Shown in pieces: positions 41,827 through 54,150 of a stretch of DNA of 64,000 bases. How positions within the stretch are numbered: the stretch's first letter is position 1; every line of letters starts with the position of its first letter. The translations under genes and the position numbers were made by a program. The notes beneath the pieces were generated by a model. The model had not been told where the DNA came from, searched no databases, and saw only the letters and a program-made list of their open reading frames with translations. The DNA comes from Nesterenkonia sedimenti (GTDB lineage Bacteria; Actinomycetota; Actinomycetes; Actinomycetales; Micrococcaceae), in NCBI RefSeq assembly GCF_012641515.1, contig NZ_JABAHY010000004.1, forward strand, positions 21,989 through 85,988, in the 5' to 3' direction.

Positions 41827-41966
41827 GGCGAAGAGATCCCTTGAGACGATGGTCTACAAACAGTTGCGCCTCATCCTATATCCGCTCCCCGGGATGCCAG
41901 ACCACACGGTGGGCTTCCCAGCAAAAATTAAGGATATTCACAGAAAAGGGGTCCAGAATAGCGGGG

Positions 41967-42854: not shown

Positions 42855-42893
42855 TAGAGTCAGTTCTGTCATCTGGTAATCGATAACCGATAG
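42855..42893 (+). promoter_or_regulatory. hglS promoter with candidate operator 1
   Basis: A TAGAGT -10 hexamer (42855-42860) is followed by the motif ATCGATAACCGATAG at 42879-42893. The core ATCG-ATAAC-CGAT is an inverted repeat. Related motifs lie before the cyclodeaminase-family gene (44495) and the FAD oxidase gene (50005). This is the best copy. Confidence 0.6.
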
Positions 42894-42938
42894 CGCCGTG
42901 GGGCGAGGTGTCCAGGCGGCAGCTGCAAGGAGGCAGTG

Positions 42939-44372
42939 GTGAGTTTTCAACAGCTCTGGCAACTCAGGGCCCGGTTCGCATTGAGCCTTTCCGAGATGTA
43001 TGGCACCGAAGTGCCCGCTTACAACACCCTGGTGGATGTCTCCACCGAGGTGAACCGCGATTTCCTCAAGGCCGAAGGCGCCGATGCTGAACGCTTGGGC
43101 AGCATCGAGCGAGTCACCGCCGAACGCCACGGTGCCATCCGAGTCGGCTCACCTGAGGAGATGTCCCAGGTCGCCCGAGTCTTCGCAGCATTCGGCATGT
43201 ATCCGGTGGGCTTCTACGACCTGCGCGATGCGGCCAAATCCTCAGTCCCGGTGGTCTCAACGGCCTTCCGGCCCATCGATAAGGAGGAGCTGGCGAAGAA
43301 CCCCTTCCGGGTTTTCACCTCCATGCTCGCCGCCGATGATCCCCGGTTCTTCGACGCGGATCTGCAGAAGCGGCTCCGGGAGTTCATCAATAACCGCACA
43401 CTCTTCCCTCAGGAGCTGCTGGAGCTCGCCGATAAGGCCGCAGCCAATAAGGGGCTCGAGGATGCCGAGGCAGACCGCCTGCTTGAGATGGCAACTGCCT
43501 CCTTCGAACTCTCTGATGATCCTGTGGACTACGCCTGGTACAAGGAGCTTGAGGCGATATCCGCAGTCGCTGCCGATATCGGTGGGGTCACCAGTACCCA
43601 TATCAACCACCTCACCCCACGGGTGCTGGACATCGATGACCTCTACCGCCGGATGGAAGAACGCGGCATCACCATGATCGATGAGGTGCAGGGGCCACCG
43701 GCCTGGGAAGGGCCCGATGTGCTGCTGCGCCAGACCTCCTTCCGGGCCCTGGATGAGAAACGAGTCTTCCGATTTGAAGACGGCACCGTCGGTCCCGGTG
43801 AGCTGCGCGTCCGCTTCGGAGAGGTCGAACAGCGCGGAATTGCGCTGACGCCGAAGGGACGGGACCTCTACGACAAGATGGTCGTCGAAACTGACTACAG
43901 GCTCTCTTCAGGACAGGGCAGTGTGCGCACAGAGGTGGCCCAGCAGGTCTGGGCCGAGAACTTGCCGCGGACAGAGAAGGAACTGGCCCTGGCGGGGTTG
44001 GGCTTCTTCACCTACACCGTCAACCAGCAGGCCTTGGCCAATGCAGGCGAGACCTACAGTGGCCGCAGGCTCACCCTTGCTGAGCTGATCGAGGCGGAGG
44101 TGGTCACCGCCCATCCGATCGTCTATGAAGACTTCCTGCCCCGCTCCGCCGCCGGTATCTTCCAGTCCAATCTCACCGATAAAGGGTCCCGCGATGATGC
44201 TCAGCAGGGCACCGACTACGACATCACTGTGATGTCCGAAATCGTAGGCCGGGAGGTCGCGGACCCCTATGCCCTCTACGAAGTCCAACAGAATGAATCC
44301 ATTGCTCTGGTGGAAAAACAATTGGGCGCCACCATCACGCCATTGGAAACCCGTAACGCAGCTCTGACCTAA
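42939..44372 (+). CDS. hglS: 2-oxoadipate dioxygenase/decarboxylase (DUF1338, HglS type)
   Basis: Fe(II) enzyme that turns 2-oxoadipate into D-2-hydroxyglutarate in lysine catabolism, as known for the DUF1338 protein of Pseudomonas putida. The 477-residue protein keeps the candidate metal and substrate residues: His64 with Arg68 in ERHGAIR, His224 in STHINHLTPR and a Glu in RFGEVEQRG near 295. An AAGGAGG site is five bases before GTG 42939. It is monocistronic, closed by a strong terminator. The ALDH7 and OCD-type genes nearby support this role. Confidence 0.85.
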   Translation: MSFQQLWQLRARFALSLSEMYGTEVPAYNTLVDVSTEVNRDFLKAEGADAERLGSIERVTAERHGAIRVGSPEEMSQVARVFAAFGMYPVGFYDLRDAAKSSVPVVSTAFRPIDKEELAKNPFRVFTSMLAADDPRFFDADLQKRLREFINNRTLFPQELLELADKAAANKGLEDAEADRLLEMATASFELSDDPVDYAWYKELEAISAVAADIGGVTSTHINHLTPRVLDIDDLYRRMEERGITMIDEVQGPPAWEGPDVLLRQTSFRALDEKRVFRFEDGTVGPGELRVRFGEVEQRGIALTPKGRDLYDKMVVETDYRLSSGQGSVRTEVAQQVWAENLPRTEKELALAGLGFFTYTVNQQALANAGETYSGRRLTLAELIEAEVVTAHPIVYEDFLPRSAAGIFQSNLTDKGSRDDAQQGTDYDITVMSEIVGREVADPYALYEVQQNESIALVEKQLGATITPLETRNAALT

Positions 44373-44391
44373 ACCCCTGATCAGACGAGAG

Positions 44392-44429
44392 AAAAAGTAC
44401 CTCCAGCTCAAAGTCTGGAGGTACTTTTT
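44392..44429. terminator. Rho-independent terminator after hglS
   Basis: AAAAAGTACCTCCAG (44392-44406) pairs perfectly with CTGGAGGTACTTTTT (44415-44429) around an eight-base loop. It has T-runs in both directions. Confidence 0.9.
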
Positions 44430-44465
44430 CTGTCATAAACCCTTTTCTGGAGACCAGCTGACTGC

Positions 44466-44509
44466 TAGAGTGCAATTTCACAGGCCGGCAGGTCATCGAT
44501 AATCGACAG
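44466..44509 (+). promoter_or_regulatory. Promoter of the cyclodeaminase-transporter operon with operator 2
   Basis: TAGAGT (44466-44471) in the same CTGCTAGAGT context as before hglS, then ATCGATAATCGACAG at 44495-44509. A GAGGGG ribosome-binding site follows. Confidence 0.55.
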
Positions 44510-44523
44510 ATTGAGGGGTTTAT

Positions 44524-45465
44524 ATGTCGTCAGAATCCGGTGCGCCGATGTGGATCGGTGCCGAGGAGGTCGCCGAGCTGATGCCGATGCGCGCAGCCGT
44601 CGATGCCTTAGAAGCCACTCTAGTGGCAGGATTCGACCCCGAGGACGACGGACAGCGCTCCCGGCTCGACACCCCCGCAGGACAGCTGCTTCAGATGCCA
44701 TCGGCCACCACCGAATGGGTCGGCACCAAAGTGGTGACCCTTCGCCCGGGCAACGACAAAGCAGGAATCCCGGTCATTCAGGGCCTCTACCTGCTCTTCG
44801 ACGGTGAACACCACACCCCGGTAGCAACCCTGGACGGCGCGGCACTGACGACCCTTCGCACACCGGCCACCACAGCCCTGGCCATCCGCCACACTGCAGC
44901 CCCTGATGCCAACCGAGCCGTCATCTTCGGCACCGGTGTCCAGGCACATGCCCATATCGAAGCCCTCCAAGCGGTTATGAACCTTGAACATATCGATGTG
45001 GTCGGCCGCAGTGCAGATAAAGCCCAGGCCGTAGTGGAGACCGCCCGCGCCAGGGGAGTCAGTGCAGAAGTTGCCGAGGCCGAGGCCGTTGCCGAGGCCG
45101 ATGTCGTGGTCACCTGCACCGCCTCCCCAGAACCACTCTTCGACTCCAGTCTTCTGCCCGACCATGCCGCGGTAGCCGCCATCGGATCCCATGATGGCCA
45201 GCACCGCGAGACTGATACCGCCTTGGTGAAACGGGCACTGACCATTGTCGAGTCCCAGACCAGCGCGCAGAAGGAAGCCGGAGACCTCCTCATCCCCGCC
45301 GCAGCCGGAGACTTCGACTTCGCCTCAGCGATCACACTCAAAGACCTCGTCACCGGCAAAGTGAAGCTGCCGGCAGATACTCCCCGGTTCTTCAAAGGCA
45401 CCGGTATGCCCTGGCAAGACCTATCCGTAGTGGCGGGGATCTACGCACTCAAGAGAGGGAAATAG
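44524..45465 (+). CDS. Ornithine cyclodeaminase/mu-crystallin family imine reductase
   Basis: A 313-residue NAD(P)-binding protein. It has GTKVVTLRPGN near residue 68, TLDGAALTTLRTPATTALA, and the Rossmann motif IFGTGVQAHAHIEAL. The family includes ketimine reductases for delta1-piperideine-2-carboxylate. In this setting I infer reduction of that imine, which comes from D- or L-lysine, to L-pipecolate; proline-type imines are an alternative. It is followed closely by the transporter genes, so one operon. Confidence 0.8.
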   Translation: MSSESGAPMWIGAEEVAELMPMRAAVDALEATLVAGFDPEDDGQRSRLDTPAGQLLQMPSATTEWVGTKVVTLRPGNDKAGIPVIQGLYLLFDGEHHTPVATLDGAALTTLRTPATTALAIRHTAAPDANRAVIFGTGVQAHAHIEALQAVMNLEHIDVVGRSADKAQAVVETARARGVSAEVAEAEAVAEADVVVTCTASPEPLFDSSLLPDHAAVAAIGSHDGQHRETDTALVKRALTIVESQTSAQKEAGDLLIPAAAGDFDFASAITLKDLVTGKVKLPADTPRFFKGTGMPWQDLSVVAGIYALKRGK

Positions 45466-45467
45466 GA

Positions 45468-45716
45468 ATGTCGTCCACAGCAGAACCGGCAGAACATACT
45501 GCACGGCGTCGGCCTATCTGGACCGAACCCGGCATCATCCTGCTCACTGTGCTCCTGGTGATGTCAGCAGTGATCTTCACCTGGTGGCCCAAGGAGCCCC
45601 ACCCCGGAGGTATCGCCCTGGTCGGCTGGCTGATGTTCGCCACCATGCCAGTCTCCATCGCGCTGACCGGCATTTATGTCATCTGGATGGAACGACGCGA
45701 GAAGGCGAGGGCATAA
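45468..45716 (+). CDS. DUF3311-type small subunit of a sodium:solute symporter
   Basis: An 82-residue protein with two membrane segments (IILLTVLLVMSAVIFTWWP and LMFATMPVSIALTGIYVIW). Such proteins are encoded directly before symporters and are thought to be accessory subunits. It lies 2 bases after the reductase gene and 3 bases before the symporter. Confidence 0.85.
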   Translation: MSSTAEPAEHTARRRPIWTEPGIILLTVLLVMSAVIFTWWPKEPHPGGIALVGWLMFATMPVSIALTGIYVIWMERREKARA

Positions 45717-45719
45717 GCC

Positions 45720-47183
45720 ATGGCTGAGAACATTCGCCTCACCGAAAGTCTCATCGTCGCGGTGTATCTGCTGGCGATGATCGGCATCGGTATCTACTTC
45801 TCCAAACGAGCCCAACGTTCAGAGGATCAGTACTGGACCGCGGGACGGAATATCAACAGCTTCGTCGGAGGTGTGGCACTCTTCGCCGCTCTGGCATCTG
45901 CCAGCTCCCTGATGGGCGCAGTCGGAGGTGGCGTCTCCCTGGGGCTGCCCTTCCTGATGACCTACGGCTTCGCAGCCACCGCCATCCTGCCTTTCGTGGT
46001 GTTCCTGGTCTCCGGCCAGATCCGCCGCACCGGAGTCCGGACACTGCCGGAGTACTTCAAAATCCGCTACAACAAGGCAGTGGCCGGGGTTGCCGCGGTT
46101 ATCGTCGTCATCGCGATGACCTTCTATATGGTCCCGCAGCTGACCGCCTCAGGACTCATCGGTGGATACGTCTTGGGCTGGGAGTTCAACACCGCCGTCA
46201 TCGTACTCGGCATCGGCTTCACCCTCTACGCTGCCCTGGGCGGGATGTGGGCGATCACCTATACCGACCTCATCCAGGGTCTGGTCATGGTCACCGGTTT
46301 GGCGATTGTTGCCACCGTGATCTGGGTCCAGCACGACGGCGCCTTCAACCTCATCGAAGAGGCACTGGCGGTAGATCCCGAACTCGGTGATATCAGCCAG
46401 CACTGGATGACCTACTTCGGCATCTTCCTGGCCTTCCTCTGGTTCGGCGTGATCTCCCCATCAGCGGTGATGCGTAACTTCGCCTCGAAATCCGCCAAGG
46501 TCGCACGCCGCTCGGCCTTCGTCGCAGCGATCCTGTATGCCTCAGTCTTCGTCTTCGGATTCATGATGGCTGCAGCCGGAGCCCGGATGGGCATCATTGG
46601 GGACTTGGACAACGCCGATATGGTCTTCCTGCACGTCATCGAGGCCTATCTGCCCCCACTGGTTGCAGGCATTCTTCTGGCGGCACTGATCTCAGCGATC
46701 ATGTCCTCAGCCGATGCGATGCTGCTGGCCATCTCCGCAGGTGTCTCCCAGGACATCTATAAGGAATTCATCAACCCCGAGGCCCGGGAGAAGACCGTGG
46801 TGCGCCTGGGGCTGGTGGTGATGTTCGTAGCCGTCGGCGTCGGCATCGTCATCACCCTGGCCGAACCCGGGTTGATCGCAGTGATGGTCGGCTGGGTCGG
46901 CGGCGCACTGCTTTCGGCCTTCGGCTTCCCGATTGTGCTGGGCATCTGGTGGAAGCGAGCCAATGCAGCCGGTGCCATGGCCGGGATGCTCGGCGGTGGC
47001 ATCACCTTCGTCATTCTGGTCTCCGGGGAGTACTTCGCCCTGGTAGCCGAACCGATTATCGCCGCCCCGGTCTCACTGGTCCTGATGATCACTGTCAGCC
47101 TCCTGACGGCCCCGCCACCACAGCACATCCAGGATCAGGTGGACCTCATGCACACCGATGTCCCCGACCGGGTGGAGGCATAA
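45720..47183 (+). CDS. Sodium:solute symporter family transporter
   Basis: A 487-residue SSS-family protein with about 13 membrane segments. It has the family segments QYWTAGRNINSFVGG, ASASSLMGAVGGG, RTLPEYFKIRYN and SAIMSSADAMLLAISA. By position it may import lysine, pipecolate or another cyclic amino acid, an inference only. The C-terminus is a hydrophilic 35-residue tail. Confidence 0.88.
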   Translation: MAENIRLTESLIVAVYLLAMIGIGIYFSKRAQRSEDQYWTAGRNINSFVGGVALFAALASASSLMGAVGGGVSLGLPFLMTYGFAATAILPFVVFLVSGQIRRTGVRTLPEYFKIRYNKAVAGVAAVIVVIAMTFYMVPQLTASGLIGGYVLGWEFNTAVIVLGIGFTLYAALGGMWAITYTDLIQGLVMVTGLAIVATVIWVQHDGAFNLIEEALAVDPELGDISQHWMTYFGIFLAFLWFGVISPSAVMRNFASKSAKVARRSAFVAAILYASVFVFGFMMAAAGARMGIIGDLDNADMVFLHVIEAYLPPLVAGILLAALISAIMSSADAMLLAISAGVSQDIYKEFINPEAREKTVVRLGLVVMFVAVGVGIVITLAEPGLIAVMVGWVGGALLSAFGFPIVLGIWWKRANAAGAMAGMLGGGITFVILVSGEYFALVAEPIIAAPVSLVLMITVSLLTAPPPQHIQDQVDLMHTDVPDRVEA

Positions 47184-47186
47184 CCT

Positions 47187-47762
47187 GTGGCCACACAACT
47201 GATCGGCGAGAAAGAGAAGCCGCTCAGCGATAAGGCCCTGATCGCCGGGGTGCGGAGGGGGCTGGGACCGATCCGTCGGTTCCGGGTCTCCTCCGCCCAG
47301 GCGGCCTCGGCCATCACCTCCAAGACGCTGATCCACCACCCCATGTGGCTGGCCAAGATCCTGACCTTCGCCGACCGGCCGCCCTTCCCACCCAAAGTGC
47401 GGCCAAATGTGGCCTTTGTAGATGCCGTCTCCGGCTACCGGGGAGTGATGGAAACTGTTCCACCACTGTGGGAGACCACCGACGACGACGCCTCGGCTCG
47501 CCAGATCAAACCCAAGATCACCACCGAGGAGAAGGCCAAACCCTATGTGCGGGCAGTCTTGGACAAAGTGGACCGCAGCTACATGATGAAGAAACCCCGG
47601 CACAGTATCGAGGAGCTGAACCTCGTGTATCTGCCGCTGTGGAAGGTCAAGCTGGCACTGCCCGGGGCCCCGGAGGAGATGGTCATCAATGCCAATACCG
47701 GGGAACCTGAGACCTATCTGGCCCGCCAATGGTCAAGCACATCCTGGCACACCCTGGACTGA
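47187..47762 (+). CDS. Unknown 191-residue protein in the symporter operon
   Basis: A soluble, basic-then-neutral protein starting at GTG 47187, three bases after the symporter stop. A segment NLVYLPLWKVKLALPG followed by VINANTGEPETYLARQW looks like a folded beta-rich domain, but I recognise no family. There is no signal or membrane segment. Tight spacing suggests it serves transport or the same metabolic route. The function is unknown. Confidence 0.6.
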   Translation: MATQLIGEKEKPLSDKALIAGVRRGLGPIRRFRVSSAQAASAITSKTLIHHPMWLAKILTFADRPPFPPKVRPNVAFVDAVSGYRGVMETVPPLWETTDDDASARQIKPKITTEEKAKPYVRAVLDKVDRSYMMKKPRHSIEELNLVYLPLWKVKLALPGAPEEMVINANTGEPETYLARQWSSTSWHTLD

Positions 47763-47791
47763 ACCGGTCCCAGCTGAGCCGACTGCACCAT

Positions 47792-47797
47792 TAGAAT
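47792..47797 (+). promoter_or_regulatory. -10 hexamer of leaderless tatB
   Basis: TAGAAT, six bases before GTG 47804. Confidence 0.5.
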
Positions 47798-47803
47798 CGT
47801 TCT

Positions 47804-48307
47804 GTGCCTGGCATCAACTTCTACGAGTTCTTCATACTCCTTGGTCTGGCCCTGGTTCTGCTGGGGCCCGAACGGTTGCCGCAGTACGCCCAGGCACTGG
47901 CCCGCTGGGTACGCAAAGCCCGCGTCTGGGCAGATGATGCAAAAGTCCGGTTCAAAGAAGAGACCGGCACTGACTTCGATGAGGTCGACTGGCAGAAATA
48001 CGACCCCCGTCAGTATGACCCCCGGCGGATCATCCGCGAGGCGCTCGCCGATGAATACAACGAGGTGCGCTCCACGGCCAAGGATGTGCAGAAATCAGTG
48101 GATCCCCGGGAGCTCTTCGCCGGAACGGGGGCTAAGAAATCAGGGGCCCTGGCCGCTGGGGTCGCCGGTTCGGCAGCCACCACTGCCGCATCATCTGAGG
48201 ATGGGGCAGCCGAGGGAGATGCTGAGACCTCCGAGGCCGAGGCAGCTGAACTGGATGTGGATCCGCTGGAGAACAATCCGACTCCCTACGACACCGAGGC
48301 CACCTAA
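47804..48307 (+). CDS. tatB: Sec-independent translocase protein TatB
   Basis: A 167-residue component of the twin-arginine translocon. One N-terminal membrane helix (FYEFFILLGLALVLLGPERLP, with the conserved Gly-Pro) is followed by an amphipathic helix (QALARWVRKARVWADDAK) and a long acidic, Ala-rich tail. It has its own -10 in the intergenic gap and interrupts the presumed lysine genes. Confidence 0.9.
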   Translation: MPGINFYEFFILLGLALVLLGPERLPQYAQALARWVRKARVWADDAKVRFKEETGTDFDEVDWQKYDPRQYDPRRIIREALADEYNEVRSTAKDVQKSVDPRELFAGTGAKKSGALAAGVAGSAATTAASSEDGAAEGDAETSEAEAAELDVDPLENNPTPYDTEAT

Positions 48308-48354
48308 AGCCGAAGGTTCTAGAAGAGATGGGCCGGCGTCGTCGTCGGCTGTAC

Positions 48355-49119
48355 TCAGCCGCCCAGGAAGAGGCTGCGGATCCCCATTCCCAGCGCCAGA
48401 AGACCACCCAAGAGCGCGATGACGGTGACCACCCTGCGCATCCCGTTCTCATCCATATGCCGCTGGACCCATTCGCCGAAGTACATACCGACGATGATCA
48501 TCACCACCGTGCCTGCCCAGGCCCACCAGGGCAGAGTCGGCAGCTGGCCGTCATCGAGGGCGAGTTTGGTGCAGAACGAGGTGGTGGCAGCCACCAGCCA
48601 CAGCGGCTGGATAGTGGCGATCATGGACTGAATCCGCCAGCCGGAGAGCACTGTGTAGATCGCGATTGGGGGAGCCCCTACTCCCACCAGGACTGTTCCG
48701 GCCCCGACGGCTCCGCCGGTGGCCAGGCGGGTGACCGGCCCGTCGATGCGCATATTGATCCGGTGGATCACCAATGAGACCGCCAGTCCGAAGATCACCA
48801 TCAGCCCGACCCCAAGGTAGAGATAGCCCTCATGGGCCCGGACTGAGAGCCAAGCGGCCGGCGGCATGATCAGCAGACAGGGCAGGGCCAGCCAGATCAG
48901 CCGGCGCCACTCGATCAGCCGCCAGGTCCGCCACATCACGAACAGGGGAGCGAAGATGGAAAGGAAATTCGAGAGCATCACGCCCTCATGTGCTCCGATG
49001 AGCAGGACCAGGAAGGGCGCCAGGACGAGGCCGAATCCGGAGCCGGAGACCCGCTGAATAACTGAGGTGGCGAACACCAATAACAGGATGATCAGCGGGA
49101 TCAGAACCAGGCTGGACAA
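48355..49119 (-). CDS. TauE/SafE (TSUP) family membrane transporter
   Basis: A 254-residue protein with about eight membrane segments and the N-terminal VIQRVSGSGFGLVLAPFLVLL, typical of the TSUP family of anion or sulfonate exporters. TTG 49119 is preferred as start with AAAGG before it; the frame is open further upstream without homology. A TAGACT hexamer (complement of 49157-49162) followed by ACCGATAG suggests control by the adjacent regulator. The substrate is unknown. Confidence 0.78.
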   Translation of the reverse strand: MSSLVLIPLIILLLVFATSVIQRVSGSGFGLVLAPFLVLLIGAHEGVMLSNFLSIFAPLFVMWRTWRLIEWRRLIWLALPCLLIMPPAAWLSVRAHEGYLYLGVGLMVIFGLAVSLVIHRINMRIDGPVTRLATGGAVGAGTVLVGVGAPPIAIYTVLSGWRIQSMIATIQPLWLVAATTSFCTKLALDDGQLPTLPWWAWAGTVVMIIVGMYFGEWVQRHMDENGMRRVVTVIALLGGLLALGMGIRSLFLGG

Positions 49120-49147
49120 CTGAGGCCTTTCGAACAGTGGAATTGCA

Positions 49148-49162
49148 CTATCGGTCAGTCTA
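49148..49162 (-). promoter_or_regulatory. TSUP promoter with operator half-site
   Basis: On the minus strand TAGACT is directly followed by GACCGATAGTGC, close to the ACCGATAGCGC right half of operator 1. It lies between the divergent TSUP and GntR genes. Confidence 0.35.
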
Positions 49163-49234
49163 CGCCTGGGGCAGTGGCCGCACAGTGGGCCGATGGCGGG
49201 TAGTAGACTGCTGAGGACCGTGGAGAGGACCGAC

Positions 49235-49918
49235 GTGACGCAGCAGCCGTTGACCATCAACTCTGGCCCGGAGAAGGTATGGGCCAGTGGTTCGGTGACC
49301 CGTCAGACTCTAAAGGACTCCACTGAGGCGATGATCCGCCGGGCCCTGCTCAGCGGCCAGATGAAACCCGGTGAGATCTATTCGGCCAATGCGCTGGCCA
49401 CCCAGTTGGGGATCTCGAACTCGCCCGCCCGCGAAGCCATGATGTCCCTGGTCGATAAGGGACTTCTGGAATTGGTGCGCAACCGTGGCTTCAGGGTCGT
49501 GGAGCTGACGGAGCAGGACAAACTGGAGGTCTATGAGCTGCGGATGCTCATCGAGGTCGAGGCAGTCCGCCGGGCCGCCCAGCGTGACCTGGCGGTGGAC
49601 CAGCAGCAGAACCTGCGGGAGCTGGCTGCCAAAACAGTTGAAATCTCCACCCATGAGGACGTCTCGGAGTATTTGGAGCTCGACCAGACCTTCCACGCCA
49701 ACCTTGTGGGGCTGGTGGGTAACACCCGATGGCTGAATGTAGTCAATACTCTGCGGGATCAATCCCGGGTCAACGGCTTCTATCTGTATCTGACCGAGAA
49801 CAACGGGTTGGAACAGACCGCACATGAACATGTGGAGATCGCTGAGACGGTTATCACCGGCGAGGTGGAGAAAGCTGCGGAACTGATGATCCGCCACCTC
49901 GACTACGCCAAACCCTGA
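49235..49918 (+). CDS. GntR-family (FadR subfamily) transcriptional regulator
   Basis: A 227-residue regulator with an N-terminal winged helix (SANALATQLGISNSPAREAMMSLVDKGLLELVRNRGFRV region) and a C-terminal FCD ligand domain (ELRMLIEVEAVRRAA, DQTFHANLV, HEHVEIAETV, where His and Asp residues bind a metal). GTG 49235 follows a GGAGAGGA site (49222-49229), better than the earlier start at 49193. It lies among the lysine/pipecolate genes and is the natural candidate to bind the shared motif. Confidence 0.88.
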   Translation: MTQQPLTINSGPEKVWASGSVTRQTLKDSTEAMIRRALLSGQMKPGEIYSANALATQLGISNSPAREAMMSLVDKGLLELVRNRGFRVVELTEQDKLEVYELRMLIEVEAVRRAAQRDLAVDQQQNLRELAAKTVEISTHEDVSEYLELDQTFHANLVGLVGNTRWLNVVNTLRDQSRVNGFYLYLTENNGLEQTAHEHVEIAETVITGEVEKAAELMIRHLDYAKP

Positions 49919-49974
49919 CTGTTCTCCCTTCGGTCAGAGGGGCTCAGCTCAGGCTTGTAAATCCCTGCGTGATC

Positions 49975-50019
49975 TTGACAACAGAATAGCCATCCTCCAG
50001 AGTTGTCGATAACCAATAA
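49975..50019 (+). promoter_or_regulatory. Promoter of the oxidase-dehydrogenase operon with operator 3
   Basis: TTGACA (49975-49980), 17 bases, then CAGAGT (49998-50003), directly followed by GTCGATAACCAATAA at 50005-50019. The operator overlaps the presumed transcription start. Confidence 0.55.
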
Positions 50020-50034
50020 GGGAGGATTCTGCTT

Positions 50035-51228
50035 GTGAATGACCGCACCGTCCCTTTGAGGCTGCCCACCGATGCCATCACGCAGCCCGAGGCCGCCGAT
50101 GTGGTGATCATCGGTGGTGGAATTATGGGAACCTCCATCGCCTACCACCTGGCCAAAGCCGGAGTGCAGAACATCGTCCTGGTCGAACAGTTCGAACTCG
50201 GCAGCGGATCCTCGGCCAAACCACTGGGGGGAGTCCGGGCGAATTTCTCCGACCCAGGGAATATCCAACTGGGCCAGCGCTCCCTGGAGCGCTTTGCCAG
50301 TTTCGACCAAGACTTCAGCGTCGATATCGAACTCTCCCGTGTCGGCTACCTCTTTCTAGCCCGCACCCCCGAGCAACTGGCCGGAATGGAAGAAGCCACC
50401 GCCGCGCAGAACCGCCTGGGTGTGAGCTCTCGGATGATCAGCCCCGAGGAGGCAGGGCAGCTGAATCCTTATATCAACCCGGAGGCGCTGCTGGGCGCCT
50501 CCTTCTCCCCGGAGGACGGGCACGCCCATCCGGTCGCCGTCGTCCAGTGCTATGCCGCTGCAGCCGAAGACCTCGGCGTGACGATCCTGCCGCGGACCGA
50601 AGTGCTTGATATTGACCGAGCCGATAACGTCATCCGTTCGGTGACCACTAACCGTGGTCGAATCCGTGCCGAAGCAGTCATCTGCTGTGCTGGAGCCTGG
50701 AGCGGAGGAATCGGTGAGCTAGCCGGTGTTGAGCTTCCGGTGGTCCCGGTGCGCCGGATGATCGGGTTGACCCCGCAGACACCCACTGGTCACCCCACCG
50801 TGCCGTTTACTTTGGACCTGGGAACCACCTTCTACTTCCACAATTACCGCAATGGCCTCCTGCTAGGGATCTCACATCAACAGGAACCCGGACCCAACCG
50901 CGAGTACTCCAATGAGTGGTTGGCAGAGTTCAACGCGGCAGCCGAGATCTGCGCCCCGGGGCTTGCTACCCCGGAACTGGCCGCCGGATGGGCCGGGTTC
51001 TACGAGACAACACCGGACCACAACGCACTGATCGGCCAGGATTCGCAGGTTGCGGGATTCTTCTACGCCACCGGATTCTCCGGACACGGTTTCCTCCAAG
51101 GCCCAGCCGTGGGAGAACTGGTCGCAGACCTCTACTGTGGCAGGGAGTCCTTTATGGATCCCGCACAGTTCTCCGCCGAGCGGTTCAGCCGCAGCGAAGC
51201 GGTCCTGCACGAAGCCAACATCATCTAG
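50035..51228 (+). CDS. FAD-dependent amino acid oxidoreductase (DadA/SoxB-like, likely pipecolate oxidase)
   Basis: A 397-residue flavoprotein. The FAD motif is VVIIGGGIMGTSIAYHLAKAG (about residues 22-42), followed by an EQFELGSGSSAKPLGG segment; the C-terminus has GWAGFYETTPDHNALIG and ATGFSGHGFLQGPAVGE. Family members oxidise secondary or D-amino acids. With ALDH7 directly downstream I infer oxidation of L-pipecolate to piperideine-6-carboxylate; sarcosine or D-proline are alternatives. GTG start with GGGAGG upstream. Confidence 0.83.
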   Translation: MNDRTVPLRLPTDAITQPEAADVVIIGGGIMGTSIAYHLAKAGVQNIVLVEQFELGSGSSAKPLGGVRANFSDPGNIQLGQRSLERFASFDQDFSVDIELSRVGYLFLARTPEQLAGMEEATAAQNRLGVSSRMISPEEAGQLNPYINPEALLGASFSPEDGHAHPVAVVQCYAAAAEDLGVTILPRTEVLDIDRADNVIRSVTTNRGRIRAEAVICCAGAWSGGIGELAGVELPVVPVRRMIGLTPQTPTGHPTVPFTLDLGTTFYFHNYRNGLLLGISHQQEPGPNREYSNEWLAEFNAAAEICAPGLATPELAAGWAGFYETTPDHNALIGQDSQVAGFFYATGFSGHGFLQGPAVGELVADLYCGRESFMDPAQFSAERFSRSEAVLHEANII

Positions 51229-51245
51229 AAAAGGAGCAGAACACC

Positions 51246-52754
51246 ATGTCAGACCTCATCGAGCAGACTAAGGCCGCATTGGAAGCCTGTGGCGTCGACC
51301 TCGCCTCACTCAGCGGAGACCTCACCGCACGCAACCCCATCGACGGCAAGGACCTGCTCAACGTTCCCAAGCACAGTGGACACGATGTGGCCGAGGCCGT
51401 CGAGAAGGCAGAGGCTGCTTTCCCGGCATGGCGCGATACTCCCGCGCCGGTGCGTGGCCAGACCGTCAAGCGCTGGGGTGAGCTGCTGGCCGAGTACAAG
51501 AAGGACCTCGCCTTCCTGGTCCAGGTCGATGCCGGAAAGATCACCTCCGAGGCTGAGGGGGAGGTTCAGGAGATGATCGATATCTGCGAATTCGCCCTGG
51601 GCCAGTCCCGGATGCTCTACGGCAAGACCATGCCCTCCGAGCGGCCCGGCCACCGACTGATGGAGACCTGGCACCCCCTGGGCGTGGTCGGGATCATCAC
51701 CGCGTTCAACTTCCCCGTGGCCCCCTACTCCTGGAATACCGCCAATGCCCTGGTGGCAGGCGACACTGTGGTGTGGAAGCCCTCGGAGATCGCAACGCTT
51801 TCTGCCCTGGCCACCGACGCCCTGCTGGCCCGGGCGGTCAAGGAGACCGGGGCTCCTGAAGGGATCCACCAGATCGTGCTCACTGACCGGGAAGGCGGTG
51901 AGGCGTTGGTGGATAACCCCAAGGTCAAACTGGTCTCTGCCACCGGTTCCACTCGGATGGGCCGTGAGGTCGGTCCCCGGGTGGCTCAGCGGTTCGGCAA
52001 ATGCCTGCTGGAGCTCGGGGGTAACAACGCCGCCATCGTCAGCGATAAGGCTGATCTCGAGCTCACCCTGCGCGGTGCCGCTTTCTCCGCAGCAGGCACC
52101 GCCGGTCAGCGCTGCACGACTCTTCGCCGGCTGATCGTCCACGAATCTGTGGCCGACCAGCTGACCGAGAAGCTCGTGGCAGCCTATAAGACCCTGAGCA
52201 TCGGGGATCCCCGTGAGGAGGGCATTCTGGTGGGTCCGCTGATTCACGAGGGCGCCTATGAGGGCATGCAGAAAGCACTGGCAGCTGCTAAGGACCAGGG
52301 CGGTGAGGTTCTGGTCGGCGGGTCTCGTGTATTGGAGGATGAGTACCCCGATGCCTTCTACGTGGAACCGGCCATTGTGAAGATGCCAGGTCAGACTGAG
52401 GTCGTCACGCAGGAGACTTTCGCGCCGATCCTCTATGTCCTGACCTACAAGACCCTGGATGAGGCCATTGAACTGCACAACAGTGTGCCCCAGGGGCTCT
52501 CCTCCTCGATCTTCACCGAGGATCAGCGGGAGGCCGAGTTGTTCCTTTCAGCTGCCGGCTCGGACTGCGGTATTGCCAATGTGAACATCGGCACCTCCGG
52601 AGCAGAGATCGGCGGTGCCTTCGGCGGGGAGAAAGAAACCGGCGGCGGCCGCGAATCCGGCTCTGATGCCTGGAAGGCCTATATGCGCCGGGCTACCAAT
52701 ACCGTGAACTACTCCGGTGAACTGCCCCTGGCCCAGGGCGTGGAGTTCATCTGA
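51246..52754 (+). CDS. amaB: Aminoadipate-semialdehyde dehydrogenase (ALDH7/AmaB)
   Basis: Oxidises alpha-aminoadipate semialdehyde, the open form of piperideine-6-carboxylate, to 2-aminoadipate. The 502-residue protein has the ALDH7 motifs ITAFNFPVAPYSWN, ELGGNNAAIV with the base Glu, GQRCTTLRR with the nucleophile Cys290, and GGAFGGEKETGGGRESGSDAWK, diagnostic for the antiquitin group. AAAAGGAGC precedes ATG 51246, and it lies 17 bases after the oxidase gene. The operon ends in a strong terminator. Confidence 0.93.
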   Translation: MSDLIEQTKAALEACGVDLASLSGDLTARNPIDGKDLLNVPKHSGHDVAEAVEKAEAAFPAWRDTPAPVRGQTVKRWGELLAEYKKDLAFLVQVDAGKITSEAEGEVQEMIDICEFALGQSRMLYGKTMPSERPGHRLMETWHPLGVVGIITAFNFPVAPYSWNTANALVAGDTVVWKPSEIATLSALATDALLARAVKETGAPEGIHQIVLTDREGGEALVDNPKVKLVSATGSTRMGREVGPRVAQRFGKCLLELGGNNAAIVSDKADLELTLRGAAFSAAGTAGQRCTTLRRLIVHESVADQLTEKLVAAYKTLSIGDPREEGILVGPLIHEGAYEGMQKALAAAKDQGGEVLVGGSRVLEDEYPDAFYVEPAIVKMPGQTEVVTQETFAPILYVLTYKTLDEAIELHNSVPQGLSSSIFTEDQREAELFLSAAGSDCGIANVNIGTSGAEIGGAFGGEKETGGGRESGSDAWKAYMRRATNTVNYSGELPLAQGVEFI

Positions 52755-52777: not shown

Positions 52778-52833
52778 CGAGGTCGGTGAAGGCCCCGGAT
52801 ATCCTCCGGCAGGCTTTCACCGACCTCGTTTTT
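52778..52833. terminator. Terminator between amaB and the IclR remnant
   Basis: CGAGGTCGGTGAA (52778-52790) pairs with TTCACCGACCTCG (52816-52828) around an inner small hairpin, then TTTTT to 52833. It overlaps the last codons of the convergent IclR gene. Confidence 0.88.
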
Positions 52834-53545
52834 GCCACTGCGCATCGGAAGTTGGCCAAGGCCGTTCCGATGCCCCCAGAATCTGCGAGACTTCCCATGC
52901 TGCCTCAGCTATAAGCGGCCCGAGGACATGTGCTCGCTCAGTGCTCATTCGAATAGCTGGCACGGAAATGCTCAAGGCACCGATGGGCTGATGTGAATGA
53001 TCAAACACAGGAGCCGCTACGCTGCGGATACCTGGCGTCCGTTCACCCAATGGGTGAGCCCATCCGCGACTGCGTGTTGCCGCGATATCTCGGAGCACCG
53101 CTTCTGAGGTAACCACCGTGGCAGAGGTGTCCGGGGGTAGTTCCTGATCTAACCACCACCGTTGTCGATCCTCGGAGAGGAAAGCCAAGATGGTGCGGCC
53201 TGGAGCACCATGGGGGAGCGGAAGCGGAATGCCGAATTCGGTATAGCTGCGCCGGAGGTCCTGATGGCTTTCGACTTGATCAATGACCGCGCGGTATCCG
53301 TTGGGCATCAGCTCATGCAATCCCACAGTCTCATTGACCTGGTCCCTCACGCGTGTCATGACCGGAAGGGCGGCTTCGCGAAGAGTCGTCGGCAGAGCGC
53401 CGTTTCTGGCTAGTTGCACAATCAGCGGACCCAGACTGTACCGATGGGCGGAATCTTGGTGAACTAGACCGTTTTCAGCCATTGCCCGCAATAAGCGATG
53501 AGTCGTACTGGTGGATAGCTCGGTCATGTTACCGAGGACGTCGTG
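52817..53545 (-). pseudogene. IclR-family regulator truncated at its N-terminus by an IS30 remnant
   Basis: An intact IclR ligand domain (HELMPNGYRAVIDQVESHQ, GAPGRTILAFL, GIRSVAAPVFD, GALSISVPAIRMS) follows part of the winged helix (NMTELSTSTTHRLLRAM). The first ~25-30 residues, its promoter and start codon are replaced by IS30 sequence at about 53540. It is convergent with amaB and may once have regulated the catabolic genes. The readable frame continues into the IS but is not a real start. Confidence 0.8.
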
Positions 53546-54150
53546 CTCTCCGAACGGCCGGCAGAGGCCGATGATCGCGCAGTTCCGGGGCACTGGGAGG
53601 GCGATCTGATCATCGGCACAGGCCGGTCCGCGATCGGCACGCTCATCGAACGCTCCAGCCGCTCCACGCTACTGGTACACCTGCCCCGGCTGGAGGGATG
53701 GGGCAAGACCCCAGCAGTGAAGAACGGGGCCGCGCTCGGAGGATATGGCGCTGTCGCGATGAACGCAGCGCTGGCTTCATCGATCACGGCCCTGCCGATC
53801 CAGCTACGTAAAACGCTGACCTGGGATCGCGGGAAAGAGCTCTCCGGGCACGCGCAGTTCACTCTCAATACCGGTACGAAGGTGTTCTTCGCGGACCCGC
53901 ACTCGCCTTGGCAGCGACCGACGAACGAGAATACCAATGGTCTGCTGCGGCAGTACTTCCCGAAGGGTACTGACCTGTCGCGGTGGTCGGCCGAAGATCT
54001 CGAGGCGGTGGCCCTCGCGCTCAACAACCGGCCCCGCAAGGTCCTCGGCTGGAGAACCCCGGCAGAGGTATTCACCGAGCAGCTACAATCGCTTCAACAA
54101 CCCGGTGTTGCATCGACCAGTTGAATCCGCCCTCGGTGAGGGAGCTCATG
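53546..54150 (+). mobile_element. IS30-family element, 3' remnant with transposase C-terminus
   Basis: In frame from about 53546 to the stop at 54122-54124, it has the IS30 integrase core: PGHWEGDLIIGTG with the first Asp, LTWDRGKELSGH with the second and PTNENTNGLLRQYFPKGTD with the Glu. The N-terminal helix-turn-helix half is missing. A presumed right end, TTGCATCGACCAGTTGAATC, lies at 54107-54126. It is non-autonomous and its left end removed the start of the IclR gene. Confidence 0.85.

Follow-up and report, generated by a model that had tools for sequence, protein, structure and literature searches.

A probable GntR-controlled L-pipecolate catabolic module around hglS in Nesterenkonia sedimenti

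The 64-kb stretch of Nesterenkonia sedimenti DNA analysed here (the window; genome size 3.1 Mb) carries at 42.9-52.8 kb an island of metabolic genes in which hglS, for a 2-oxoadipate dioxygenase/decarboxylase, is found together with genes for an OCD-family reductase, a sodium:solute symporter (SSS), a GntR/FCD regulator, a DAO-family FAD enzyme and an ALDH7 aldehyde dehydrogenase (Table 1). An earlier sequence-only reading had taken this segment for a lysine/pipecolate catabolic island, and family-model searches recover all the genes that it named at the coordinates it claimed; it had not listed an 82-residue open reading frame (ORF) and a 191-residue orphan, which flank the symporter gene, nor the TauE permease gene between tatB and the regulator gene. 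The island is probably organized in three transcription units, namely hglS; the OCD gene with the 82-residue ORF, the symporter gene and the orphan; and the FAD gene with the ALDH7 gene.

Table 1. Genes and other features of the island and of the tatB-tauE site within it (positions in the window)
Feature	Position	Strand	Basis or remark
Putative operator GTAATCGATAAC	42876-42887	.	60 nt before hglS; 1 mismatch to GTTATCGATAAC
hglS (DUF1338; mycobacterial-type model), 2-oxoadipate dioxygenase/decarboxylase	42936-44372	+	Pfam PF07063, E 1.4e-140; NCBIfam NF050083
Terminator-like hairpin 3' of hglS	44390-44431	+	fold -27.7 kcal/mol, z -7.5
Weaker putative operator GTCATCGATAAT	44492-44503	.	32 nt before OCD gene; 2 mismatches to GTTATCGATAAC
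OCD/mu-crystallin-family reductase, probably piperideine-2-carboxylate (ketimine) reductase	44524-45465	+	PF02423, E 1.2e-41
82-residue ORF beside symporter gene, membrane protein by reading of its sequence	45468-45716	+	open frame
SSS, possible pipecolate/imino-acid importer	45720-47183	+	PF00474, E 1.8e-62; TIGR00813 over cut-off
Orphan 191-residue protein, gene directly 3' of symporter gene	47187-47762	+	no family over cut-off
tatB, housekeeping, mid-island but not an island member	47804-48307	+	TatB models, scores under their cut-offs
TauE/SafE permease, belonging to the tatB-tauE site and not to the island	48355-49260	-	PF01925
GntR/FCD regulator, proposed operator reader; start uncertain, overlaps TauE frame	49193-49918	+	PF07729, PF00392
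Putative operator GTTGTCGATAAC	50002-50013	.	33 nt before FAD oxidase gene; 1 mismatch to GTTATCGATAAC
DAO-family FAD enzyme, proposed L-pipecolate dehydrogenase/oxidase (to piperideine-6-carboxylate)	50035-51228	+	PF01266, E 8.3e-77
ALDH7, L-piperidine-6-carboxylate/aminoadipate-semialdehyde dehydrogenase	51246-52754	+	NCBIfam NF050084
Terminator-like hairpin 3' of ALDH7	52778-52828	+	fold -41.4 kcal/mol, z -7.5

Two of the enzymes are matched by curated models at the level of function. HglS passes NF050083 (745.9 bits, cut-off 600) and fails a second HglS model, NF049974 (400 bits, cut-off 550); in alignment with the solved HglS 6w1g_A (287 bits) it preserves erHgaiRvg, HiNHltpR and rfgEveqrg and retains Arg74 as well as the metal ligands, the His and Glu of the triad being placed on particular HglS residues by our own assumption. 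The role of Arg74 as the substrate arginine and an HHE metal triad are described in the available part of PMC7286885. ALDH7, for its part, passes the L-piperidine-6-carboxylate dehydrogenase model NF050084 (801.1 bits, cut-off 730) and matches the Pcd structure 6rtr with 722.7 bits. These two curated equivalog matches support the lower route proposed by the sequence-only reading, whereby piperideine-6-carboxylate (P6C) or aminoadipate semialdehyde would be converted to aminoadipate, and 2-oxoadipate to D-2-hydroxyglutarate.

The nearest solved sequence to the FAD enzyme is 1y56_B, an L-proline dehydrogenase chain of P. horikoshii (209.5 bits, as against 124.9 for the runner-up), and its AF2 model (pLDDT 90.1) retrieves the same chain at Foldseek rank 1 (TMq 0.87, 31% identity), so that by nearest sequence and by fold the protein falls in the L-proline dehydrogenase chain B/SoxB branch of the DAO family; no model is over its cut-off among the best 25 of the 44 matched. 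The label "DadA-like" given to it previously is consequently correct as far as the DAO family and no further, the nearest solved relative being an L-proline dehydrogenase. Such dehydrogenases yield pyrroline-5-carboxylate from proline, and the same type of chemistry on pipecolate, the six-ring homologue of proline, would yield P6C, which is the substrate of ALDH7, whose gene begins 17 bases past the end of the FAD gene. Neighbourhood and kinship to L-proline dehydrogenase together support a pipecolate-type oxidase. The family to which the flavoenzyme belongs also includes sarcosine, dimethylglycine and fructosyl-amino-acid oxidases, from which it might be supposed that the protein acts on a substituted lysine (saccharopine, N-epsilon-carboxyalkyl lysine) to free aminoadipate semialdehyde or oxidises some other secondary amine, and that the island does not serve pipecolate at all; however, L-proline dehydrogenase is clearly the nearest relative, by the scores just given, and an OCD reductase gene (at least 200 bits) occurs in 9 of the 80 HglS loci compared below, every one of which bears the oxidase, and we hold this explanation to be very unlikely.

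The OCD protein has as its closest solved relatives the ketimine reductase CRYM (102.8 bits by sequence, 173.5 bits by profile) and alanine dehydrogenase, with lysine cyclodeaminase structures lower (61 and 92.9 bits, respectively). At the position of an alanine dehydrogenase Asp, all 12 aligned members carry a His (H223; aigSHdgqhrE versus aigADgpgkqE), as judged via the alanine dehydrogenase alignment, lysine cyclodeaminase itself not being directly aligned; we take this Asp position to be that of the catalytic Asp of cyclodeaminases. In the available part of a review (PMC9854754), Asp236 of lysine cyclodeaminase is described as binding the substrate. The comparison bears on whether the OCD protein might itself be a lysine cyclodeaminase that turns L-lysine into L-pipecolate in one step, which would dispense with a separate lysine-opening enzyme and would agree with the shared superfamily and with the matches to the cyclodeaminase structures; yet CRYM outscores these structures by sequence and by profile, and the invariant His occupies the position of the alanine dehydrogenase Asp, and we regard such an activity as extremely improbable. 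We favour the OCD protein as, probably, a piperideine-2-carboxylate (P2C) reductase.

The sequence-only reading had proposed to compare the neighbourhoods of DUF1338 plus ALDH7 genes across actinobacteria, and this comparison, based on the best 80 of 104 confirmed HglS loci from one genome scan, with bit-score limits for the gene calls set after the first map, supports the linkage: 74 loci hold an ALDH7 gene, and in 71 of these it is adjacent to hglS on one strand, in either order. An FAD oxidase gene is present in 28 loci (a further one in L052, cut at the contig edge and scoring 127 bits, was left out); in 21 of the 28 it is the gene immediately 5' of hglS and shares its strand. A gene for lysine 6-aminotransferase (LAT) is present in 27 loci, and none holds both (p 3e-7, with loci treated as independent and kinship ignored); 25 hold neither, an absence that is not firm, as some of these loci are short or cut contigs. 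The oxidase loci include Kocuria, Yaniella, Arthrobacter, Corynebacterium, Cryobacterium, Nesterenkonia, Promicromonospora, Streptomyces and Rhodococcus, and the LAT loci are mostly from Mycobacterium, Mycolicibacterium, Prescottella and other Rhodococcus. As the two genes never share a locus among the 80, FAD oxidase and LAT seem to supply P6C as alternatives to each other, although lineage confounds the comparison. Among 120 genomes drawn from the family, N. sedimenti included, the FAD oxidase occurs in 7 and HglS in 9, all 7 lying inside the 9 (p 6e-10, kinship ignored).

The same loci are informative about the steps further down. An ELFV amino-acid dehydrogenase gene is found in 24 of the 80 loci (16 of the 28 with the oxidase, none of the 27 with LAT, 8 of the 25 others); in L037 (Yaniella) and L011 (Arthrobacter) it lies 3' of the ALDH7 gene, with GdhB as the best model (190 and 177 bits, cut-off 620 missed), and both loci also have a gene for a YdiJ-like D-2-hydroxyglutarate dehydrogenase (453 and 413 bits, cut-off 1350 missed). 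This distribution suggests that in these relatives 2-aminoadipate may be deaminated by a dehydrogenase and not by a transaminase. Other arrangements were also seen. Six loci (L026, L028, L030, L031, L032, L033) combine HglS, ALDH7 and ELFV with oxidase and LAT both under the limit, and perhaps have a third feeder of P6C or aminoadipate; no common feeder was found among ten ORFs taken from L019 and from six of the 25 loci lacking oxidase and LAT, of which one encodes an ornithine transaminase, two encode transporters and the other seven match nothing at 1e-35. The ornithine transaminase gene (TIGR01885 over cut-off) precedes the ALDH7 gene and hglS in a metagenome-assembled genome (MAG) of Propionibacteriales (L057 6056-7390), and two Corynebacterium loci (L004 13029-14165; L003 4096) have an aminotransferase gene, with the listed models under cut-off and no ELFV over the limit, which is a candidate for the aminoadipate transaminase.

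In four Arthrobacter loci (L009, L011, L013, L050) and in Cryobacterium L012, genes for a polar amino-acid ABC importer, an OCD protein and a DadA-like protein are divergent from the oxidase operon, and on paper the four Arthrobacter loci would encode a complete route from D-lysine or D-pipecolate to 2-oxoglutarate. More generally, the linked importers differ by lineage (21 loci), being ABC in Arthrobacter and Cryobacterium, AGCS in Yaniella, Kocuria and Corynebacterium, and SSS in Nesterenkonia. It is here that the proposal made by the sequence-only reading after P. putida has to be weighed, namely that the island serves D-lysine or D-pipecolate, with a D-amino-acid dehydrogenase forming P2C, the OCD protein reducing it to L-pipecolate and the remaining steps as in the reading that we favour. 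The gene content of these five loci would fit it, as would the match of the L011 DadA-like protein to PRK00711 (176 bits, though under the cut-off of 383) and the ketimine reductase as best solved relative of the OCD protein; the window genome, however, lacks an orthologue of the Arthrobacter DadA-like protein (best match 31.8 bits) and its linked importer is of the SSS and not of the ABC type, so that for N. sedimenti we regard this proposal as unlikely.

The claim that lysine is a substrate likewise finds no support in this genome, in which no LAT is over cut-off (best 164.9 bits, cut-off 520.8). Together with the missing DadA-like orthologue, this is the reason why we read the island as one for pipecolate rather than lysine. 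LAT was found in none of the 120 genomes of the family draw, a weak result in that the control was equally undetected at that strictness. The aminotransferase step is indeed absent from the window, as had been stated before. Elsewhere in the genome there are 8 class III transaminase matches, one of them annotated; this one, about 21 kb to the right of the window and adjoining acyl-CoA dehydrogenase and thiamine pyrophosphate (TPP)-enzyme genes, was not taken as the aminoadipate transaminase, passing the gamma-aminobutyrate (GABA) transaminase model (735.8 bits, cut-off 639) and failing that for aminoadipate (378 bits, cut-off 650). The segment in question (L113 1509-7052, contig C34) holds acyl-CoA dehydrogenase, GABA transaminase, TPP-enzyme and GlcD-like oxidase genes. 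The single ELFV match of the genome (31%, 66 bits) was also set aside, being taken as an ordinary glutamate dehydrogenase. A homologue of the YdiJ-like D-2-hydroxyglutarate dehydrogenase (50% identity) is encoded on contig C23.

As to regulation, the palindrome GTTATCGATAAC is matched with up to two mismatches four times in the 64 kb, where 0.46 matches are expected and none of 100 shuffles reached four, and three of the four, none of them perfect, precede hglS, the OCD gene and the FAD gene, that is, the three probable transcription units. The whole genome contains no perfect site and three with one mismatch, of which two are in the island; the third (contig C1) was taken as a chance occurrence, as it lies inside an ORF of 287 residues. 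Perfect copies precede the FAD gene in L001 (Kocuria), L002 and L037 (Yaniella), L003 (Corynebacterium) and L008 (an Actinomycetaceae MAG); in two of these loci, L003 and L037, a perfect copy stands before the GntR gene as well, and GTTATATATAAC takes this place before the FAD gene in Arthrobacter L005, L009, L011, L013 and L050. When the motif is scored as GTTATNNATAAC, with at least 9 of 10 positions in the 260 nt 5' of the FAD gene, over 31 loci (the 28 with the oxidase plus L142, L143 and L147), it is present in 13 of the 15 loci with a GntR homologue (counted at 190 bits or more) and in 1 of the 16 without (Fisher p 6.4e-6, kinship ignored), random stretches of the same loci reaching this score at a rate of 0.014. 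The GntR/FCD protein therefore probably controls the three transcription units through GTTATCGATAAC, presumably as a repressor.

The reading that we favour, and consider likely, is that the island serves the peripheral breakdown of L-pipecolate, and probably also of P2C, as a module under the control of the GntR protein. The sodium symporter, whose best equivalog is PutP (168.6 bits, under the cut-off of 515.5), would import the imino acid, perhaps with two small partner proteins; the OCD-family enzyme would reduce P2C to L-pipecolate, and the FAD enzyme would oxidise L-pipecolate to P6C at the C-N bond distal to the carboxylate. ALDH7 would then convert P6C to L-2-aminoadipate, an unlinked enzyme (a transaminase) would form 2-oxoadipate, and HglS would turn the latter into D-2-hydroxyglutarate, which the unlinked YdiJ-like dehydrogenase of contig C23 may convert back to 2-oxoglutarate, the GntR/FCD protein governing the three units via GTTATCGATAAC. 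A wider generalization, to which we give even chances, is that Micrococcales and Corynebacterium have a GntR regulon, recognizable by GTTATCGATAAC (by GTTATATATAAC in some Arthrobacter), which runs a modular pipecolate pathway wherein a proline-dehydrogenase-like flavoenzyme replaces LAT as the feeder of P6C, in many members ELFV takes over from the aminoadipate transaminase, the importer is swapped between SSS, AGCS and ABC, and the fullest form, that of Arthrobacter, encodes in a single locus the whole way from D-lysine or D-pipecolate to 2-oxoglutarate.

The computations establish which families the genes belong to, that their linkage is conserved, that the palindrome exists and goes with the regulator gene, and that relatives lack the island; substrates, step directions, transport and repression are inferred. 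A number of observations weigh against the pipecolate module or its regulation as drawn here, beginning with the fact that the enzyme substrates are predictions from sequence and context. The FAD enzyme fails the AmaA pipecolate oxidase model NF050086 (80 bits, cut-off 600), and its top model is that of sarcosine oxidase beta (TIGR01373 soxB, 137 bits, under the cut-off of 529); the analogy with P. putida drawn previously thus holds for HglS and ALDH7 and breaks down at the oxidase. For the claimed step from P2C to pipecolate the assignment is to a broad family, as the OCD protein is under every equivalog cut-off (best NCBIfam model PRK06141, 180.4 bits versus 322) and also fails NF045512, the LhpI-type P2C/pyrroline-2-carboxylate reductase model (127.6 bits versus 400). 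In a hand-counted alignment to 6w1g_A, Val402 of the solved HglS is replaced by Arg here, Ser403 being retained; according to the available part of PMC7286885, the Val402 contact is made via the backbone amide. Neither the annotated class III transaminase nor the ELFV match of the genome was taken to supply the enzyme that would convert aminoadipate to 2-oxoadipate, the YdiJ-like protein is under its model cut-off (365.6 versus 1350 bits), and the mutual exclusion of LAT and oxidase is partly a matter of lineage. The motif was selected after viewing the window and its relatives and is to that extent exploratory; at two mismatches, the level of the OCD copy, 65 sites per strand are found across the genome, against 17 in the control. 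In the window no copy of GTTATCGATAAC precedes the gene of the regulator itself (best 6/10), in N. ebinurensis hglS and the OCD gene are preceded by the motif and the oxidase gene is not, and L008 carries it though its locus has no GntR homologue. Lastly, both hairpins are absent from the output of a pattern-based terminator scan, and a promoter scan gave no site at the three putative operator positions.

The island is patchily distributed, HglS being present in 2 of 30 genus genomes, and its position around tatB was addressed by comparing the tauE surroundings of five genus members without hglS. In three of the five (L136-L138) the tatB-tauE site is uninterrupted, the homologue of the gene at 41841 lying 30-50 nt from tatB, followed by tauE; L140 and L141 matched the window at tauE alone, perhaps through paralogues, and are uninformative for the empty site. 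TauE homologues of 63-70% identity adjoin tatB in four relatives. In the window, 4,992 nt separate the 41841 gene from tatB and are occupied by hglS through the orphan gene, the remaining island lying past tauE, whereas in N. ebinurensis the same island genes (66-90% identity) are found past tauE in a different order. Given the uninterrupted site in three relatives and the reordered island beyond tauE in N. ebinurensis, the location of tatB seems to be a chance outcome of insertion and rearrangement, with no functional link. Of the two small proteins beside the symporter, the 82-residue one has no Pfam match and a 76% identical copy in N. ebinurensis; the 191-residue orphan is over no family cut-off in Pfam and NCBIfam searches, occurs in 1 of 394 genomes of the class, namely its own, and has a 73% counterpart in N. 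ebinurensis. A structure model of the orphan, built from 2 sequences, was discarded as useless (pLDDT 36). Just past the island and beside an IclR gene, positions 53543-54124 hold a fragment that weakly resembles an integrase core (PF00665, 23.3 bits, under cut-off) and that we take to be IS30-like.

Several known systems resemble parts of the island. The D-lysine/pipecolate route of P. putida proceeds through AmaA, the ALDH7 AmaB and HglS with the identical order of intermediates, and has in common with the present island the HglS fold with its substrate Arg and the ALDH7 step; we know of no counterpart there of the regulator and the palindrome. By model, as stated above, the oxidase differs from AmaA. 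The reductase here is of the OCD type, whereas P. putida reportedly uses a putative malate/lactate dehydrogenase, going by a title cited in PMC4113996. According to the available part of that paper, hydroxyproline/proline neighbourhoods share with the island the D-amino-acid oxidase, OCD reductase and aldehyde dehydrogenase superfamilies, and their OCD members are assigned as pyrroline-2-carboxylate reductases; their substrates, in contrast, are five-ring compounds, and HglS and ALDH7 go unmentioned in that part. The 31% identical P. horikoshii chain, which we take to be one subunit of a larger enzyme, differs in that no partner subunit gene lies beside the FAD gene in the window. In the mycobacterial Lat-Pcd lysine cluster, presumably Rv3290c-Rv3293 with Rv3292 as the hglS gene, a relative of HglS (54% in L066) is likewise found beside the P6C dehydrogenase; P6C is fed there by LAT (745 bits in L066, cut-off 520.8) and here by the FAD oxidase. 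A 157-residue gene, which we presume to be lrp and which has no family match at 1e-20, lies between in L066 and other mycobacterial loci. These loci place hglS beside the P6C dehydrogenase, with LAT in the locus, despite the statement in the available part of PMC6746716 (2019) that mycobacteria retained just the first two reactions; the same part calls the Lat/Pcd branch unique to mycobacteria, and the paper makes no mention of Rv3292.

Every enzyme class of the island is already known, and what seems new is the combination, the flavoenzyme as a feeder from pipecolate, and the operator, none of which was found among the literature matches listed, mostly outside subscription journals; the impression of the sequence-only reading that the actinobacterial setting is little described is in line with this. 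The sharing of loci by hglS and LAT (27 of 80) suggests that the Lat/Pcd branch extends past its first two reactions, and ELFV may be newly named as a candidate family for the deamination of aminoadipate. If the favoured reading is true, actinobacteria would possess a pipecolate route with a flavoenzyme, regulator and operator of their own, and the regulon would be predictable from a 12-base sequence. On the same condition, the actinobacterial aminoadipate branch would run on via HglS to central metabolism, its upstream feeders being interchangeable.

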